This document shows, in pieces, positions 22,045 through 33,967 of a stretch of 64,000 bases of DNA; the first letter of the stretch is position 1; each line of letters starts with the position of its first letter. Both the position numbers and the translations under genes were made by a program. This stretch comes from Salinibacterium sp. NG253 (GTDB lineage: Bacteria; Actinomycetota; Actinomycetes; Actinomycetales; Microbacteriaceae), in contig NZ_JADYWF010000001.1 in the NCBI RefSeq assembly GCF_015864945.1, positions 1,426,378 through 1,490,377 of the forward strand, written 5' to 3'. The notes below the pieces were generated by a model that saw nothing but the letters and a program-made list of their open reading frames with translations, was not told the origin of the DNA and made no database searches.

Positions 22045-22863
22045 TCAGTGAGCGCTATTGCGCGCAAAAGCGTGCGCCCGCGCCGCCAAGGTGCGCGAAA
22101 GGCGACCGAAAAGATCGATGCTTGCTCGCCCCGGCCATTCCTCCGGTAACGCCGAATCCGGCAACCCCGGATCGACATACGGGATCACACGCCACTGATC
22201 GAGAGCATGGATGTAGCACGCGAACGCCTCAGCATCGGTCGACGCCGGACCCACCAGAGCGGAGTGCTGGGCGAGAAAACTGTTGTGCAATTCACGCAAC
22301 CGATCAAGGTCCCACCACTGGGCTACGGCATCCGCAAACGACTGAGTCGTCTCGGGCCGGCCCGCAATAAATAGCGTCGCGCACTCGCTCAATTCGAGGT
22401 TTTCTAGAATGCGCAACACTTCTGGCTTAAGGTGGGCGGGGCAAATCCAGAGACCGGTAGCGACGGTGCCGCACCCGATCCAACCGAGTCTGCGACGAAG
22501 CTGGTGGCGTTCGTCGCGGCGTGACTCCGGAATCGAAAACGAGATCAGGCACCACGGGTCATCTTCGCGCTGCTGGCGGAAGCTAAAGACGCGGCGATCG
22601 CCGCTCTCAAGCATCGGCACGGCATCCTCGTTCACGCGGTAGCCCTGCTGGCCGTCGACCATTTCAGGCACAAGAAGGCCCTTTGATTTCACTCGTGCGA
22701 TGGCGCTGCGGGCGCCATTGGCAGAGACTCCCAGCGCCTCCATGATGCGCACGAGATGCGCCGACGAGATCCAGCCACCCAGCTGACGCAGCTGCGAGCC
22801 CACAAACGTTCGGAGTAAAGCTGTTGCACTTCCGGGGCGGGAGTCGAAGTCATCCAGAATCAT
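22045..22863 (-). CDS. PaaX-family transcriptional regulator
   Basis: 272 residues. The N-terminal winged helix (ARTFVG-like start LLRTFVGSQLRQLGGWISSA; SANGARSAIARVKSKG) is followed by a central domain with WCLISFSIPESRRDERHQLRRRLGWIGCG and a C-terminal PaaX domain. PaaX proteins repress aromatic catabolism genes and respond to CoA thioesters of aromatic acids. This gene lies 6 bp after kynU as the last gene of the kynurenine operon, so it probably controls that operon. Confidence 0.88.
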   Translation of the reverse strand: MILDDFDSRPGSATALLRTFVGSQLRQLGGWISSAHLVRIMEALGVSANGARSAIARVKSKGLLVPEMVDGQQGYRVNEDAVPMLESGDRRVFSFRQQREDDPWCLISFSIPESRRDERHQLRRRLGWIGCGTVATGLWICPAHLKPEVLRILENLELSECATLFIAGRPETTQSFADAVAQWWDLDRLRELHNSFLAQHSALVGPASTDAEAFACYIHALDQWRVIPYVDPGLPDSALPEEWPGRASIDLFGRLSRTLAARAHAFARNSAH

Positions 22864-22869
22864 GCGCGG

Positions 22870-24135
22870 CTACTTGGTGAGCTGCGCGTGAACGGCGTCG
22901 ATGCCGAGCTGCACTTCGGCGAAGGTTGTGCTGAGCGGCGATAGTCCGAGTCGGATGCCGTGGGGCCGCCTAAAGTCAGGGATGATCCCCTGCTTCCAGA
23001 GTTCGGCATTCACGGCGGCGAAGCTCTCGTGGTCGATCGTGACGTGGCTGCCGCGTTCGGCGGCATCCCGCGGCGAGCTGACGGTGACGCCGAGCGGCAC
23101 GAGCAGTTCGTCAACGAGCGCGAGCGCGTACTCGGTGAGAGCGACCGACTTGGCGCGGATCGCGGGGATGCCCGCCTCTTCGATGAGCCCGAGCATGTCT
23201 TGCATGGCGAGCGAACCAACGACCGAGGGCGTGCCACTGATGAAGCGACGGATGCCCTGGTGCGGTGCATAACCTGGACCCATTTCGAAAGGGTTGTTGC
23301 TGCCCATCCAGCCCTGGATCGGTTGCGTCATGGCCTCGATGTGCTCGGCGCGCACGTAGCCGAAGGCGGGGGAACCCGGGCCTCCGTTGAGGTATTTATA
23401 CGTGCAGCCGGCTGCAAGGTCGACGCCCCACGCGTCGAGTTCGGTTTCGACGACGCCGGCGGAGTGACAGAGATCCCAGAGCACGAGCGCACCTGCGTCG
23501 TGCGCGAGGGCGGTGATGCCGGGCATATCGGCGAGGTGACCGGAGCGGTAGGCGACGTGGCTGATCACGACCAGGGCCGTGTTCTCGTTGAGCGCGTCCT
23601 TTACTTCGGCGGCGGTGACTCCCCCATCGCGGGCGGGGTCAATCCAGCGCAGCGTCTTGCCGAGCTCGGCGGCGATGCCCTCAACTAGGTAGCGGTCGGT
23701 CGGAAAGTTGCCGGTGTCGATCACGATCTCGCTGCGCTCGGGGCGGGCGCTGAGACCAGCGCGAATCAGCTTATAGAGCACGACAGTGGTCGAGTCGCCG
23801 ATGAAGGTCTGGCCTGGGGCAGCGCCGAGAGTGGCAGCGCCGAGACGGTCTCCGAGCGTGAGAGGCAATTCGTACCACGCTTCATCCCAGCCACGGATGA
23901 GACGGCCGCCCCATTGCTCGTCAACGAACTCGGCGAGGCGGGCCGCACTCGCGATGGTGGGACGTCCGAGCGAGTTGCCGTCGAGGTAGGCACGCACTTC
24001 GGCGGATCGCACGAACTTGGCTGGGTACTGCTTCAGCGGGTCAGCGGCATCGAGCGCTGTGGCAGCCGCGGCGCTCGTGTCGATGGGTGCGCCAGCATCG
24101 GGGTGCGCACTGGTTGATGCGGTGATCTCGGTCAT
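22870..24135 (-). CDS. kynU: Kynureninase
   Basis: 421 residues from the ATG at 24135, which overlaps the stop of the amidohydrolase gene as ATGA. This fold-type I PLP enzyme cleaves L-kynurenine to anthranilate and L-alanine. Visible are YLDGNSLGRP near residue 45, the substrate-site Asp region (LWDLCHSAGVVETEL), and the PLP lysine in AAGCTYKYLNGGPGSP near residue 238. A conserved C-terminal stretch follows (RRPHGIRLGLSPL). It is the third gene of the kynurenine operon. Confidence 0.95.
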   Translation of the reverse strand: MTEITASTSAHPDAGAPIDTSAAAATALDAADPLKQYPAKFVRSAEVRAYLDGNSLGRPTIASAARLAEFVDEQWGGRLIRGWDEAWYELPLTLGDRLGAATLGAAPGQTFIGDSTTVVLYKLIRAGLSARPERSEIVIDTGNFPTDRYLVEGIAAELGKTLRWIDPARDGGVTAAEVKDALNENTALVVISHVAYRSGHLADMPGITALAHDAGALVLWDLCHSAGVVETELDAWGVDLAAGCTYKYLNGGPGSPAFGYVRAEHIEAMTQPIQGWMGSNNPFEMGPGYAPHQGIRRFISGTPSVVGSLAMQDMLGLIEEAGIPAIRAKSVALTEYALALVDELLVPLGVTVSSPRDAAERGSHVTIDHESFAAVNAELWKQGIIPDFRRPHGIRLGLSPLSTTFAEVQLGIDAVHAQLTK

Positions 24136-25289
24136 AGGTCGATCCTCCATGTGGTCGGGATGGGGGTTGTTGCGGCAGGGACGACATCGTCGCTGTTCCG
24201 AGCAGAGTGCGCAGCGGCTGCGGCCTCCGCAAAACTGGGGTGAAGCAGCTCGCGGGCGGTCACCACGGTGGCGGTCATGAGCCACGACGCGAGGTCGGCA
24301 TCCGCGCGCGGCACGGTGGGGAGGTAGCTCACGGTGCTGCCGAAACCGGGCAAGCACAGCGCCCGCAGCAGGGCGTCGTAACGCACGCCGGCATCCTGCA
24401 GTGCGGTCAGTTCGCGGTGGTTGAGGCCGGGCGGGAGGTCTCCGTTGCCCAGATCGGTGCCGTAGCGGATGATGCCGCCGGCGGCATGAAAGCGCTGCAG
24501 GTTATCGCTGGCGGTGGCGAAGTCACGGCCGCGCTGACCATAACCGTGGATGTCGAGGGTGCTGATCCACGAGTGACGTCCTGAAAGAAAGCGGGAGTTC
24601 GGCTGCGCCATCTCCTCGATCAGGGAATCGCTGAGTTTCTCGGTCCAGGGCGTGTGTGCCAGGCGGTCGGCCCCGGCAGCGAATGCTCGCCGGGCTTGGC
24701 CAGTTCCCTGCACGTGCACGACCACTTCAGCTCCCCGACTGTGGGCGTACTCGATGAGGGCGCTCAAGGTGTCATCGTCGATCACGGGCCCCTCTTCAGC
24801 ATTGAGCGCGACTTTCACAAAGGTTGCCCCTGCGGCCAGTTGTTGCGCGACGGCCGCCATCGCCTCCTCACCGGTCTGCACTTCGGCGACAGCGAGGGTC
24901 GCCGCCCAGGCCCGGTTCGCCGGGTACGTGTGAGGCGCGGTGATAAAAGCTCCCGCATGGTGCAGCTGCGGAACCGTCTCGTCGGCAGCCCACTCCTGAA
25001 GACGCTCAGGGTGCCCGCCCAAGTCGTCGACGGCGGCAAGGCCGCCAGCGATGAGAGCGCGCGGCTCGATCAATCCGAGGTGAACGTGCGCGTCGCGAAA
25101 GCCCGGAAGAAGCACTCCCGGAAGACGGTGTGCGGTCGGGCTTGCGGTATCCGCAATCACTCGGATGCCGTGGGGGCTCACTCGAACGGTGGCGGGGCCG
25201 TGCCATTCCCGCAGCCAATAGCCGTCAACGGCGTAATCGACGGCGAGCGCCGACTCCGGAGTCTCGTGCGGGGTTGGTTGTTCGCTCAC
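24132..25289 (-). CDS. Metal-dependent amidohydrolase, candidate kynurenine formamidase
   Basis: 385 residues. The GTG at 25289 overlaps the kynA stop as GTGA, and the stop overlaps the kynU ATG, so the gene is locked between the two steps that need N-formylkynurenine hydrolysis. All ligands of a subtype-I binuclear amidohydrolase are present in order: HVH in FRDAHVHLG (near residue 65), a carboxylatable Lys in ATFVKVALN, His in VVVHVQG, His in RLAHTPW, and Asp in YGTDLGNG. Neither the KynB motif nor an alpha/beta-hydrolase nucleophile is present. Formamidase activity is inference from position and chemistry. Confidence 0.85.
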
Positions 25290-26143
25290 GAGCGGCCAAT
25301 CTCGGTGCGCACGGCAAAGAGTTCGGGGAAGAAGGTGAGGTCGAGAGCTTTCTGGAGAAAGCCGACGCCGCTCGAGCCGCCCGTGCCGCGTTTCGTACCG
25401 ATGATGCGCATGACGGTTTTCATGTGGCGGAAGCGCCACAGTTGGAAGTTATCTTCGAGGTCGACGAACTCTTCGCAGGCTTCGTAGGCAAGCCAGTGTT
25501 CGCTTTCGTTGTCGTAGATGTGGCGGAAGGTGTCGATGAGCTCGTCGTTTTGCTCGTAACCGCGCGTGACATCGCGATTGAGTACGGCATCGGGAATCTC
25601 GTAGCCGTGACGGCTGAGGTAGCGCAAGAATTCGTCATAGACGCTGGGCTCGGCGAGCAGCTTGCTGAGCAGGGCGTGGGCTTCAGGCTGCGATTCGAAC
25701 ACCTTGAGCATGCCGGCGTTCTTATTGCCGAGCAAAAACTCGACCGCGCGGTACTGGTAGGACTGGAATCCGGATGAGCTGCCCAAGTAGTCGCGGAACT
25801 GCGAATACTCGCTCGGCGTGAGAGTCGCGAGCACCGACCACTGCTCGGTGAGGGTTCGCTGGATGTGCTTGACGCGAGCAATGCGCTTGAGCGCAATAGA
25901 GAGGTTGTCGCTCGCGATGAGGTCGCGGGCCGAGGTGAGTTCGTGGATCACGAGCTTGAGCCACAGCTCGGTGGTCTGATGCTGGATGATGAACAACATC
26001 TCATCGTGATGCTCAGGAGTGCTTTGCGGAGTCTGCGCGCTCAGCAGCGTGTCGAGTTCCAGATACGAGCCGTACGACATCCGCTTACTAAAGTCGGTGA
26101 CAATCTCGTCTTCCAGGGCACGCTCGCTGTGGTTATCAGACAT
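25286..26143 (-). CDS. kynA: Tryptophan 2,3-dioxygenase
   Basis: 285 residues, the usual bacterial TDO length. This haem enzyme oxidises L-tryptophan to N-formylkynurenine. The N-terminal signature [16 protein letters not shown] and [20 protein letters not shown] are diagnostic. The haem-ligand region is [13 protein letters not shown] near residue 240, and [14 protein letters not shown] follows, as in the family. It is the first gene of the operon; the 5' region before 26143 holds its promoter, but no clear operator symmetry is visible. Confidence 0.96.
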
Positions 26144-26224: not shown

Positions 26225-26329
26225 ATGAAGTCTCCCACGGTTGCCGCTCCGACGCCGAGACCGGGACCGGGACCGGGACCGGGACCGGGACCGGGACCGA
26301 GACCTGCGTATCGGATAATGGCCAAGTGA
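26225..26329 (+). CDS. 34-residue Pro-Gly repeat leader ORF coupled to the NUDIX gene
   Basis: An ATG at 26225 is preceded by a good ribosome site (AGGAG, 6-7 bases away). The frame runs 34 codons: MKSPTVAAPTPR, then six to seven Pro-Gly pairs, then RPAYRIMAK. The TGA overlaps the GTG start of the NUDIX gene as GTGA. The hexamer repeat encodes the Pro-Gly run. Consecutive prolines alternating with glycine could slow ribosomes, so this may be a regulatory leader peptide or merely a coupled small ORF. It resembles no known leader I can name. Confidence 0.45.
   Translation: MKSPTVAAPTPRPGPGPGPGPGPGPRPAYRIMAK
26259..26300 (+). repeat. GACCGG hexanucleotide tandem repeat
   Basis: Six perfect head-to-tail copies of GACCGG (26259-26294) are followed by a seventh with one change. 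They encode Pro-Gly dipeptides in the small leader ORF on the plus strand. Hexamer slippage would keep the frame and only change the length of the run. Confidence 0.95.
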
Positions 26330-31283: not shown

Positions 31284-33611
31284 TTAGAGCGCAGCCAGCT
31301 TGTCGACGAACGAATCGCCAGGCGCTACGTCGACCGACTCTGCATCGATCTCGGCGCGGCCGAGGAGTTCGTCCATCTTGCGACGACGGTTGCGCGGGAT
31401 GAGCGTGACAACGGTTCCGGCCTTGCCTGCGCGACCGGTACGGCCAGCGCGGTGCAGGTACGTCTTGTACTCCTCGGGAGCATCGGCCTGAATAACGAGG
31501 CTGATGTCATCCACGTGGATGCCGCGGGCTGCAACGTCTGTCGCGACAAGCACGTTGACCTTGCCGCTTGTGAGCATCTGCAGGTTGCGGGTACGACGCG
31601 ACTGGTTGAGGTCACCGTGAAGGCTCGTGGCGGGGGTTCCACCCATGCTCAAGAATTCAGCCATCTCTTCAGCAAACGCACGCGTGCGGGTGAAGACAAG
31701 AGTCTTGCCCGTGCCTGCGGAAAGCTGCTTGATGATCGCACGCTTGTCGCGCTGTTCGATGAGCAGAACCTTGTGGTCGATCGTAGAAGAAGCCTGGTCT
31801 TCACCAGCAACCTCGTGCACGGCCGGGTCAACAAGGAATTCCTTGACGAGAGTGGCAACACCCTTGTCGAGGGTTGCCGAGAACAGCAGCTTCTGGCCGC
31901 CCTCGCTGGTCTCCCGCAGAATGCGCTGAACAGGCTCAAGGAACCCGAGGTCGCACATGTGGTCTGCTTCGTCGAGAACAGTAACCTTCACCTGGCTGAG
32001 GTCGAGACGACCCTGCTCGATGAGGTCTTCAACACGGCCGGGGGTCGCGATGATGACATCGACGCCACGGGTGAGGGCTGCAACCTGCTTGTACTGAGGA
32101 ACGCCACCCACGATGGTCGTGGTGAACAGGCCAACGCTGCGAGCGATGGGCTGAATGGTGCGGTCGATCTGCTGAGCAAGCTCACGGGTCGGAGCGAGGA
32201 TGAGGGCGCGCGGCTTGCGGCCCATCTGACGGTCCTTGCCACCATTGTTTTCCATGAGGCGCTCAACGAGAGGCGCACCGAAAGCAATGGTCTTGCCCGA
32301 TCCGGTCTTTCCGCGGCCAAGAACATCCTTGCCGGCGAGAACGTCGGGGATGGTTGCTGCCTGAATGGGGAACGGCGACTCTGCACCCATGGATGCGAGC
32401 TGACGCGAAATGTTCGAGCCGATACCCAGGTCGATGAAGGACTTGCCTTCAACATCACTGGCGGTAACGGTCTTGGCTACGAGGCGCTCAAGTACAACGT
32501 CTTCTTGCTGCGAGTGCGACGACTTGCCATCGCGGGCCGGGTAGTAGGCGCTTTCGCGCGGCTCGGAACGTTGCGGACGGTCGTTGCGGTCATTGCGGTC
32601 GTTGTACGACGGGCGCGAACCACGGTCGGGACGGTCGCCATACGCGGGACGCTCCGAACGCTGCGGGCGCTCGTTGTAGGCGGGGCGCTCTGAACGCTCG
32701 GGGCGTGCACCGCGGTCGGGACGGTCACCGTACGCGGGGCGCTCGGTGCGCTGAGCACGGTCGTTGTACGACGGGCGCTCGGTGCGACCAGCGGATGCGC
32801 CACGGTCACCGTACGAGGGACGCTCAGTGCGGCCAGCGTTGCGATCGTTGTACGACGGACGCTCGTTGCGGTCGTTGTACGAGGGACGGCCACCGCGGTC
32901 GGGGCGGTCACCGTAGGAGGGACGCTCTGAACGGCCTCCAGCATTGCGGTCGTTGTACGAGGGGCGCTCGTTACGGCCGCTCGAGTTGCGGTCGTTGTAC
33001 GACGGACGCTCGCTGCGACCGGCGTTGCCGCCACGGTCGGGGCGGTCACCGTACGAAGGACGGTCGTTGCTGCGCTGCGGACGCTCGTTGCGGTCGTTGC
33101 GGTCGTTGCGGTCGTTGCGGTCGTTGTATGACGGACGGCCACCACGGTCAGGACGGTCGCCGTAAGACGGGCGATCGTTGCTGCGCTGCGGACGCTCGTT
33201 GCGGTCGCCATACGAAGGGCGGCCACCGCGGTCGGGGCGGTCACCATAGGAAGGACGGTCATTGCTGCGCTGGGGACGGTCACCATAGGCGCCACGTTCG
33301 TTGCGCTGCGGGCGGTCACCATACGAGGGGCGATCTCCGCGGCCGCCGGCCTCGGGGCGTCCACCACGGGCAGGCTTTTCGCGAGGAGTCCAGTCGGGGC
33401 GACGCTCGTCGCGTCCGCCACGGGCTCCGCCCGGCTTGCGGTCTCCAGTGCGAGCAGCGCGGTCATCTGCGCTCCAGCGACGCTTGGGGGCATCGCCCTC
33501 ATCGGCACGGAATCCGCGGTGACCTTCGCTGCGTGAACCGCCGCGTTTGGGCGCTCCAGAGTTGAAGTTCTTGTTGCCACGACCAGTGGCAGGCTTATTG
33601 AAATTAGGCAT
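31284..33611 (-). CDS. DEAD-box RNA helicase with long repetitive N-terminal region
   Basis: 775 residues from the ATG at 33611, which has a GGAAAG ribosome site. Residues 1-370 are a disordered Arg/Asp/Gly/Tyr-rich region of degenerate RPSYGDRPDRGG-like repeats. The helicase core (about 375-775) has the Q-motif (FPIQAATIPDVL), Walker A (KTGSGKT), PTRELAQQID, DEAD (VLDEADHMCDLGF), SAT (LLFSATLD) and motif VI (HRAGRTGRAG). It should remodel RNA or ribosome precursors. The N-terminal placement and size of the low-complexity region are unusual, since most relatives carry it at the C-terminus. Confidence 0.92.
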   Translation of the reverse strand: MPNFNKPATGRGNKNFNSGAPKRGGSRSEGHRGFRADEGDAPKRRWSADDRAARTGDRKPGGARGGRDERRPDWTPREKPARGGRPEAGGRGDRPSYGDRPQRNERGAYGDRPQRSNDRPSYGDRPDRGGRPSYGDRNERPQRSNDRPSYGDRPDRGGRPSYNDRNDRNDRNDRNERPQRSNDRPSYGDRPDRGGNAGRSERPSYNDRNSSGRNERPSYNDRNAGGRSERPSYGDRPDRGGRPSYNDRNERPSYNDRNAGRTERPSYGDRGASAGRTERPSYNDRAQRTERPAYGDRPDRGARPERSERPAYNERPQRSERPAYGDRPDRGSRPSYNDRNDRNDRPQRSEPRESAYYPARDGKSSHSQQEDVVLERLVAKTVTASDVEGKSFIDLGIGSNISRQLASMGAESPFPIQAATIPDVLAGKDVLGRGKTGSGKTIAFGAPLVERLMENNGGKDRQMGRKPRALILAPTRELAQQIDRTIQPIARSVGLFTTTIVGGVPQYKQVAALTRGVDVIIATPGRVEDLIEQGRLDLSQVKVTVLDEADHMCDLGFLEPVQRILRETSEGGQKLLFSATLDKGVATLVKEFLVDPAVHEVAGEDQASSTIDHKVLLIEQRDKRAIIKQLSAGTGKTLVFTRTRAFAEEMAEFLSMGGTPATSLHGDLNQSRRTRNLQMLTSGKVNVLVATDVAARGIHVDDISLVIQADAPEEYKTYLHRAGRTGRAGKAGTVVTLIPRNRRRKMDELLGRAEIDAESVDVAPGDSFVDKLAAL
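32560..33330 (-). repeat. Degenerate coding repeats in the helicase N-terminus
   Basis: Roughly twenty to thirty copies of units coding RPSYGDRPDRGG, RPSYNDRN or RNDRNERPQRSND follow one another with variation. The most regular part, around 33090-33125, repeats GGTCGTTGC four times (Arg-Asn-Asp on the coding strand). The plus-strand frames through this region are open only because of the repeat and are not genes. Confidence 0.9.
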
Positions 33612-33967
33612 TGTTCTTTCCGGGTTGTTCTTAGATGGAACACATCTAGTGCGTGGAGCACGCGCGCACGCCAACACTCACCATTTAGTTAGCAAGACAC
33701 CGATTGGTTAGAAACCGATTGGCTGTCTTCTAATTAGCTTGAGTATTCGTACGCTGCACTACTGAACCCGGGCAGTCTTTGACCGAGGCCGTCACATACA
33801 TTCGTGTGATTGTCACCAGTTGGATGGACTGGCAAACCGGCCCGCAAGACTTACAAACCCATACGCGAGATTTCGCGCTGTCTTGAGCCGACTTGACTAC
33901 GTTACTCGATCGAGCCCCCAATAGCGAGGTTCGAGCGGATGCCGCTACTGGCAGCTTCGCCGGCTCA
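33612..33967. other. Intergenic region upstream of the helicase gene, with a direct repeat
   Basis: About 355 bp without a convincing gene. It must hold the helicase promoter and possibly a long 5' leader. ACCGATTGG occurs twice 15 bp apart (33699-33707 and 33714-33722), within the last 115 bp before the start codon. I see no classic riboswitch, tRNA or terminator. Confidence 0.55.

Follow-up and report, generated by a model that had tools for sequence, protein, structure and literature searches.

Which enzyme hydrolyses N-formylkynurenine is the question raised by the kynurenine operon of Salinibacterium sp. NG253, a step that is named in PMC4243253 as the exception to the cross-species conservation of tryptophan catabolism. 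In the window, by which we mean the whole 64-kb stretch of DNA that was analysed, four genes follow one another on the minus strand: tryptophan 2,3-dioxygenase (TDO, 285 aa, 25286..26143), an amidohydrolase-superfamily protein (AH, 385 aa, GTG start, 24132..25289), which is the proposed N-formylkynurenine formamidase, kynureninase (KynU, 421 aa, 22870..24135) and a PaaX-type regulator (272 aa, 22045..22863). TDO matched TIGR03036 with 405 bits (cut-off 390.7). KynU fell slightly below the TIGR01814 cut-off (236 bits against 246.4) but carried a KYNU_C domain (2e-25). The regulator matched PF20803, PF08223 and PF07848 above their cut-offs; it lies 6 bp downstream of kynU on the same strand, and such a regulator also adjoins part of the related operons. 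The original prediction had described an operon with TDO and kynureninase, an amidohydrolase between them overlapping both neighbours by 4 bp, HVH, Lys, two His and Asp intact, and no KynB-type or alpha/beta-hydrolase formamidase. The profile matches bore out the gene content, with neither a KynB gene nor an alpha/beta-hydrolase gene in the operon, the coordinates gave 4-bp overlaps at TDO/AH (GTGA) and at AH/KynU (ATGA), and the codons of all the expected metal ligands were present.

Two further features of the window were observed. Six exact tandem copies of a hexamer, GGTCCC as read on the minus strand, occupy 26263-26298, approximately 120 bp ahead of the first codon of TDO. An ORF at 31284-33677 (minus strand), DEAD-box helicase-like by eye, is repetitive over a long N-terminal stretch, with many Arg, Asp, Gly and Tyr residues.

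The formamidase types discussed in PMC4243253 are KynB and a eukaryotic serine hydrolase. KynB (PF04199/TIGR03035) resembles AH in the proposed reaction and in being metal-dependent; it is described there as holding two zinc ions and as matching no known amidase or amidohydrolase, and it differs from AH in fold and motif. The KFA/AFMID type, described in the same text as a serine hydrolase without metal (PMC4243253), has the same proposed reaction as AH but a different fold. Searches of the window's genome returned neither type: there was no TIGR03035 match at E<=0.001, and no match at E<=1e-8 to a KFA profile built from three KFA-like alpha/beta hydrolases (A1). The sole PF04199 match at E<=0.001 was a cyclase of 352 aa (L001), flanked by two ORFs that look SDR-like and ABC-binding-protein-like by eye. 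We rejected this cyclase as a KynB. Where the KynB-family motif is HxGTHxDxPxH (PMC5341072), it reads QYSTQWDSFAH, with the first two KynB-type His replaced by Gln; the first two His are likewise changed to Gln in the esterase MGS0169 (PMC5341072). A cyclase with an arylformamidase annotation also appears in PMC10608976. AH itself matched neither TIGR03035 nor PF04199, which places it outside the KynB family, and with its PF01979 match and TIM-barrel model it is not an alpha/beta hydrolase.

The only Pfam label for AH is the general amidohydrolase family PF01979, matched at 26 bits (cut-off 25), and AH passed no model of NCBIfam release 20.0. The closest named records, at 98, 85 and 80% identity, came from Salinibacterium species, a genus that the NCBI taxonomy assigns to the Microbacteriaceae; the marine actinobacterium PHSC20C1 followed at 68%. 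The residues of a binuclear-type amidohydrolase site (HxH, Lys, His, His, Asp) were all kept in 71 of 71 linked relatives. In the window their codons lie on the minus strand at 25080..25088 (the HVH motif with H68 and H70), 24813..24815 (K159, the expected bridging lysine), 24714..24716 (H192) and 24654..24656 (H212), both expected metal ligands, and 24453..24455 (D279, an expected ligand and general base/acid). K159 is presumably carboxylated, by analogy with the superfamily. D66, Y122, P123, W128, P214, T244, N263, Y276 and E293 were also invariant in the 71 linked sequences, and a GGYPxxxxW stretch was invariant or nearly so in AH and partly common to more distant relatives. As expected for the superfamily, most of 27 more distant rows kept the metal site as well; being common to the superfamily, the site is silent on the substrate.

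The AH model has the fold of a TIM-barrel amidohydrolase. Among Foldseek's 1000 best chains, its best structural relatives included amide-bond hydrolases, its fold was that of arginine carboxypeptidases and ochratoxinases, and the nearest solved enzymes were carboxypeptidases, prolidases and ochratoxinases rather than deformylases. AH shares fold and metal-site positions with this group, at 18-24% identity to its carboxypeptidase, dipeptidase and ochratoxinase members 3be7, 3mtw, 2qs8, 4c60 and 8ihq, and differs from it in the GGYPxxxxW stretch, in some very short relatives (234 aa in G041) and in its gene company. ACMSD is another amidohydrolase of tryptophan breakdown. We dropped this reading of AH, since AH contains the lysine and its matches are to the carboxypeptidase group. 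The same structural neighbourhood speaks for a different role, in which AH would be a carboxypeptidase or dipeptidase releasing tryptophan from peptides for TDO, with N-formylkynurenine hydrolysed spontaneously or by some other enzyme: in fold, AH comes nearest to arginine carboxypeptidases, Xaa-Pro dipeptidases and ochratoxinases. The identity to those enzymes in structural alignments is, however, only 17-24%, and the distribution of AH described below bears on this reading further.

As a formamidase, AH would act between its two neighbours. TDO would open tryptophan to N-formylkynurenine. AH, as a TIM-barrel hydrolase in which the HxH motif, the presumably carboxylated Lys, two His and Asp would hold two metal ions, would activate water for attack on the formyl carbonyl of N-formylkynurenine, giving formate and kynurenine, and KynU would then split kynurenine into anthranilate and alanine.

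We examined the gene neighbourhood of AH in 199 Microbacteriaceae genomes. Matches to AH at E<=1e-10 occurred in 59 of them, and the 57 strong ones (E<=6e-21, window included) were counted; the weak genomes G007 and G176 and a second copy in G025 were dropped. AH lay beside TDO and/or KynU in 54 of the 57. The arrangement was TDO-AH-KynU on one strand in 43, TDO-AH in six and AH-KynU without TDO in five (G004, G035, G110, G150 and G167), and neither gene was adjacent in three (G034, G109 and G166). With starts picked by script, AH began in the interval from 10 bp upstream to 20 bp downstream of the TDO stop at 37 of 48 TDO loci other than the window. At one locus (L101 in G141) the AH frame was open for 144 aa only while the flanking TDO and KynU were full length, so that the gene is either disrupted or misassembled. 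For the AH-KynU pairs without a TDO match (L056, L073, L074, L079 and L085), N-formylkynurenine may have an external source or be made by a different oxygenase.

The linkage extended beyond the family. In an order sample of 297 genomes, 36 matched the AH profile at E<=1e-20, and 24 of these were strong (E<=1e-41). Eight of the strong homologues lay outside Microbacteriaceae (families f9 and f16), all eight beside TDO and/or KynU, and an Embleya plasmid (Streptomycetaceae) also has TDO-AH-KynU. The arrangement is more than chance, since it recurs across the family, in two other families and on the Embleya plasmid. Weak homologues (E between 1e-20 and 1e-33) were inspected at eight loci (one each in G400, G471, G411, G435, G308 and G367, two in G376); the stretches fetched around them contained neither TDO nor KynU, and these homologues were therefore treated as another subfamily.

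The original prediction had also expected that kynB and KFA homologues would be missing from the genome, as the TIGR03035 and KFA-profile searches found, and that the AH family would track with kynA and kynU where kynB is absent. In the comparison AH did track with kynA/kynU, in genomes lacking KFA, with a near-complete mutual exclusion of AH and KFA-like hydrolases. Classical TDO was present in 57 of the 199 family genomes, and 49 genomes had both AH and classical TDO, 8 AH only, 8 TDO only and 134 neither. None of the 49 genomes with both contained a KFA-like hydrolase at E<=1e-25; weaker alpha/beta-hydrolase matches occurred in 13 of them, the best at 4e-13. A KFA-like hydrolase was present in seven of the eight classical-TDO genomes without AH, at E<=1e-25 in six (G026, G093, G155, G116, G066 and G138) and as a match in two pieces (5e-20 and 2e-19) in G009. 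Only G084 (L113, L258 and L259) departed from the replacement pattern: its classical TDO was accompanied by neither AH nor KFA, and there was only a cyclase match, which at 78 bits was below the cut-off. Conversely, G150 had AH and a KFA-like gene at 1e-43 with no TDO. The switch could be seen within one genus (g76, genus read by eye), where G075 and G190 have AH and G138 has KFA at 6e-28.

The same pattern appeared in the order genomes outside the family. We scanned 80 of the 81 with TDO, leaving out G251 (62% complete); nine Microbacteriaceae genomes with AH (G277, G291, G305, G345, G359, G385, G429, G450 and G460) were also left out of the order-sample KFA and KynB scans. Classical TDO was present in 71 of the 80, 65 without AH and six with it. 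A KFA-like gene at E<=1e-28 was found in all 65 genomes without AH and in none of the six with AH, which had weaker matches at 1e-26 (G422 and G463) and 1e-16 (G301 and G328); at a flat cut-off of 1e-25 the counts were 65 of 65 against two of six. Fisher p-values for these comparisons are nominal, because the genomes are related and the cut-offs were set after the scores had been seen.

Genomes with divergent or partial TDO were counted apart (12 in the family, in addition to the 57 with classical TDO, and nine in the order sample), and KFA at E<=1e-25 was found in none of the 12 and in four of the nine. The 12 family genomes, of 0.7-1.7 Mb, have a divergent TDO (~170-260 bits) beside or near kynureninase (L107, L108, L111, L112, L115, L116, L118, L120 and L122-L125), and our searches found neither AH nor a KFA-like gene in them. 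In G013 the divergent TDO and kynureninase are separated by an ORF that looks patatin-like by eye.

This displacement pattern is what carries the argument for AH as the formamidase. The near-exclusion of AH and the KFA-like hydrolase would be left unexplained if AH were a peptidase supplying tryptophan to TDO, as would the five of 57 operons that pair AH with KynU without TDO, and we regard that role as very unlikely.

In sister lineages, the operon neighbourhood that AH has elsewhere is often occupied by the KFA-like gene. The order was TDO-KynU-KFA in G026 and G093, with one ORF between KynU and KFA in G155, TDO-KFA in G116, KFA-TDO in G066 and TDO-KynU-PaaX-KFA in G480 and G362, and in G138 and G009 the gene lay elsewhere. 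KFA-KynU pairs without a TDO match in G045 and G171 mirror the AH-KynU pairs. In at least 29 of the 65 classical-TDO order genomes without AH, no more than 8 kb separated the KFA-like gene from TDO; the pairs were chosen by eye and the distances computed by script. The KFA profile matched the Drosophila kynurenine formamidase 4e11 at 3e-11; the match to a carboxylesterase was far stronger and matches to acylaminoacyl peptidases were similar, so that the identity of KFA, too, is a call by context. Among 16 loci with a KFA-like match, HGGxW was present in nine and GHS[AG]GG in 15.

The nature of the replaced gene bears on the order of the steps. KynU could act first, turning N-formylkynurenine into N-formylanthranilate, from which AH would then release anthranilate. 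The operon and the chemistry would be the same, and co-occurrence cannot tell the order of the steps. The replacement by a KFA-like hydrolase, with its profile match to a kynurenine formamidase from an animal, nevertheless argues against this sequence of events, and the usual gene order TDO, AH, KynU (43 of 57) follows the classical steps, although gene order is weak evidence. We consider it unlikely that AH acts after KynU.

Could the step instead be carried out by another enzyme encoded elsewhere, such as a below-cut-off cyclase, with AH in some other role in the operon? Among the 199 family genomes one, G019, which has neither AH nor TDO, scored above the TIGR03035 cut-off; none of the 80 order genomes scanned did. 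Matches below the cut-off (E<=0.001) occurred in 31 of the 49 family genomes with AH and TDO, and in the window's congeners G145 and G197 they reached 81 and 78 bits; the two top scores of the whole order sample, 141 (G301) and 137 bits (G328) against a cut-off of 223, were also in genomes with AH and TDO. These matches leave candidates for such an enzyme, and G084 and the 12 divergent-TDO genomes would need another solution if they make kynurenine. On the other side, 18 of the 49 genomes with AH and TDO, the window's included, had no TIGR03035 match at E<=0.001, the other family genomes had such matches about as often (76 of 150), and on this reading the displacement would be a coincidence. 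The below-cut-off matches are probably other cyclases, and we think it extremely unlikely that one of them or another enzyme encoded elsewhere is the formamidase of these operons. Taken together, the linkage, the displacement and the intact site, all comparative evidence, support the original reading of AH, and it is very probably a non-orthologous kynurenine formamidase. Points that speak against it are the eight AH genomes without TDO, three of them with AH unlinked, the cases of G084 and G150, the weaker KFA matches, the KynB-like matches below the cut-off and the L192 row of the tree described next.

To place AH among its relatives, we built a tree of 120 sequences by a quick method (SH-aLRT only, midpoint root), leaving out identical sequences and loci whose best aligned AH piece was <200 aa. 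Linkage on one strand to TDO or a true KynU was present in 72 rows; 71 of them, and with them three unlinked g35 rows, were separated from the rest by a branch with an SH-aLRT of 99. The 72nd linked row (L192, G684) fell in the sister group, which comprises 19 rows of lineages f31, f66 and f70 of the same phylum. All 19 kept the metal site, plus most of the other invariant residues. A kynureninase or kynureninase-like gene was present in the fetched stretch at 13 of the 19 loci; 12 of these genes were distant (28-32% identity to the window's KynU) and on the opposite strand, and that of L210 scored above the TIGR01814 cut-off and was on the same strand. No TDO was found in the fetched stretches of the 19 loci, several of which are short, and a divergent TDO was found elsewhere in five of nine sister-group genomes tested, G684 not being among the five. 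AH adjoins a gene that we named uvrB-like in many sister-group loci; at L197, L199, L204, L207, L209 and L210, in distant lineages, the AH relative is adjacent to such a gene or not far from it, frequently together with a nearby kynureninase-like gene.

These observations may be joined in a broader reading: a further formamidase family, evolved independently on a carboxypeptidase/ochratoxinase-like amidohydrolase fold, would have displaced KFA in most Microbacteriaceae with TDO, and the sister clade (f31, f66 and f70) would do the same job, which would make the family old. Its scope would be 49 of the 69 sampled TDO-bearing Microbacteriaceae and a few other actinobacterial lineages, in addition to the sister lineages. 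We give this joint reading about an even chance.

An amidohydrolase at the formamidase step has been suggested before. The amidohydrolase MymD/MyeD, encoded with TDO and kynureninase, was proposed for N-formylkynurenine cleavage in mycemycin biosynthesis, and deletion of myeD is reported in the same source to have abolished mycemycins A and B (PMC5867642). MymD differs from AH in its length (513 aa) and in belonging to an antibiotic cluster; we liken the two by role and by the description in that source. Besides PMC5867642, our search of open-access titles and starts of abstracts found none that assigns such an amidohydrolase to this step.

If AH is indeed the kynurenine formamidase, a further solution to this step would close a gap in the genomes of many actinobacteria, and a branch of the amidohydrolase superfamily that has been without an assigned function would gain one. 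The operon would then also be a natural case in which one enzyme has replaced another within a largely unchanged operon.
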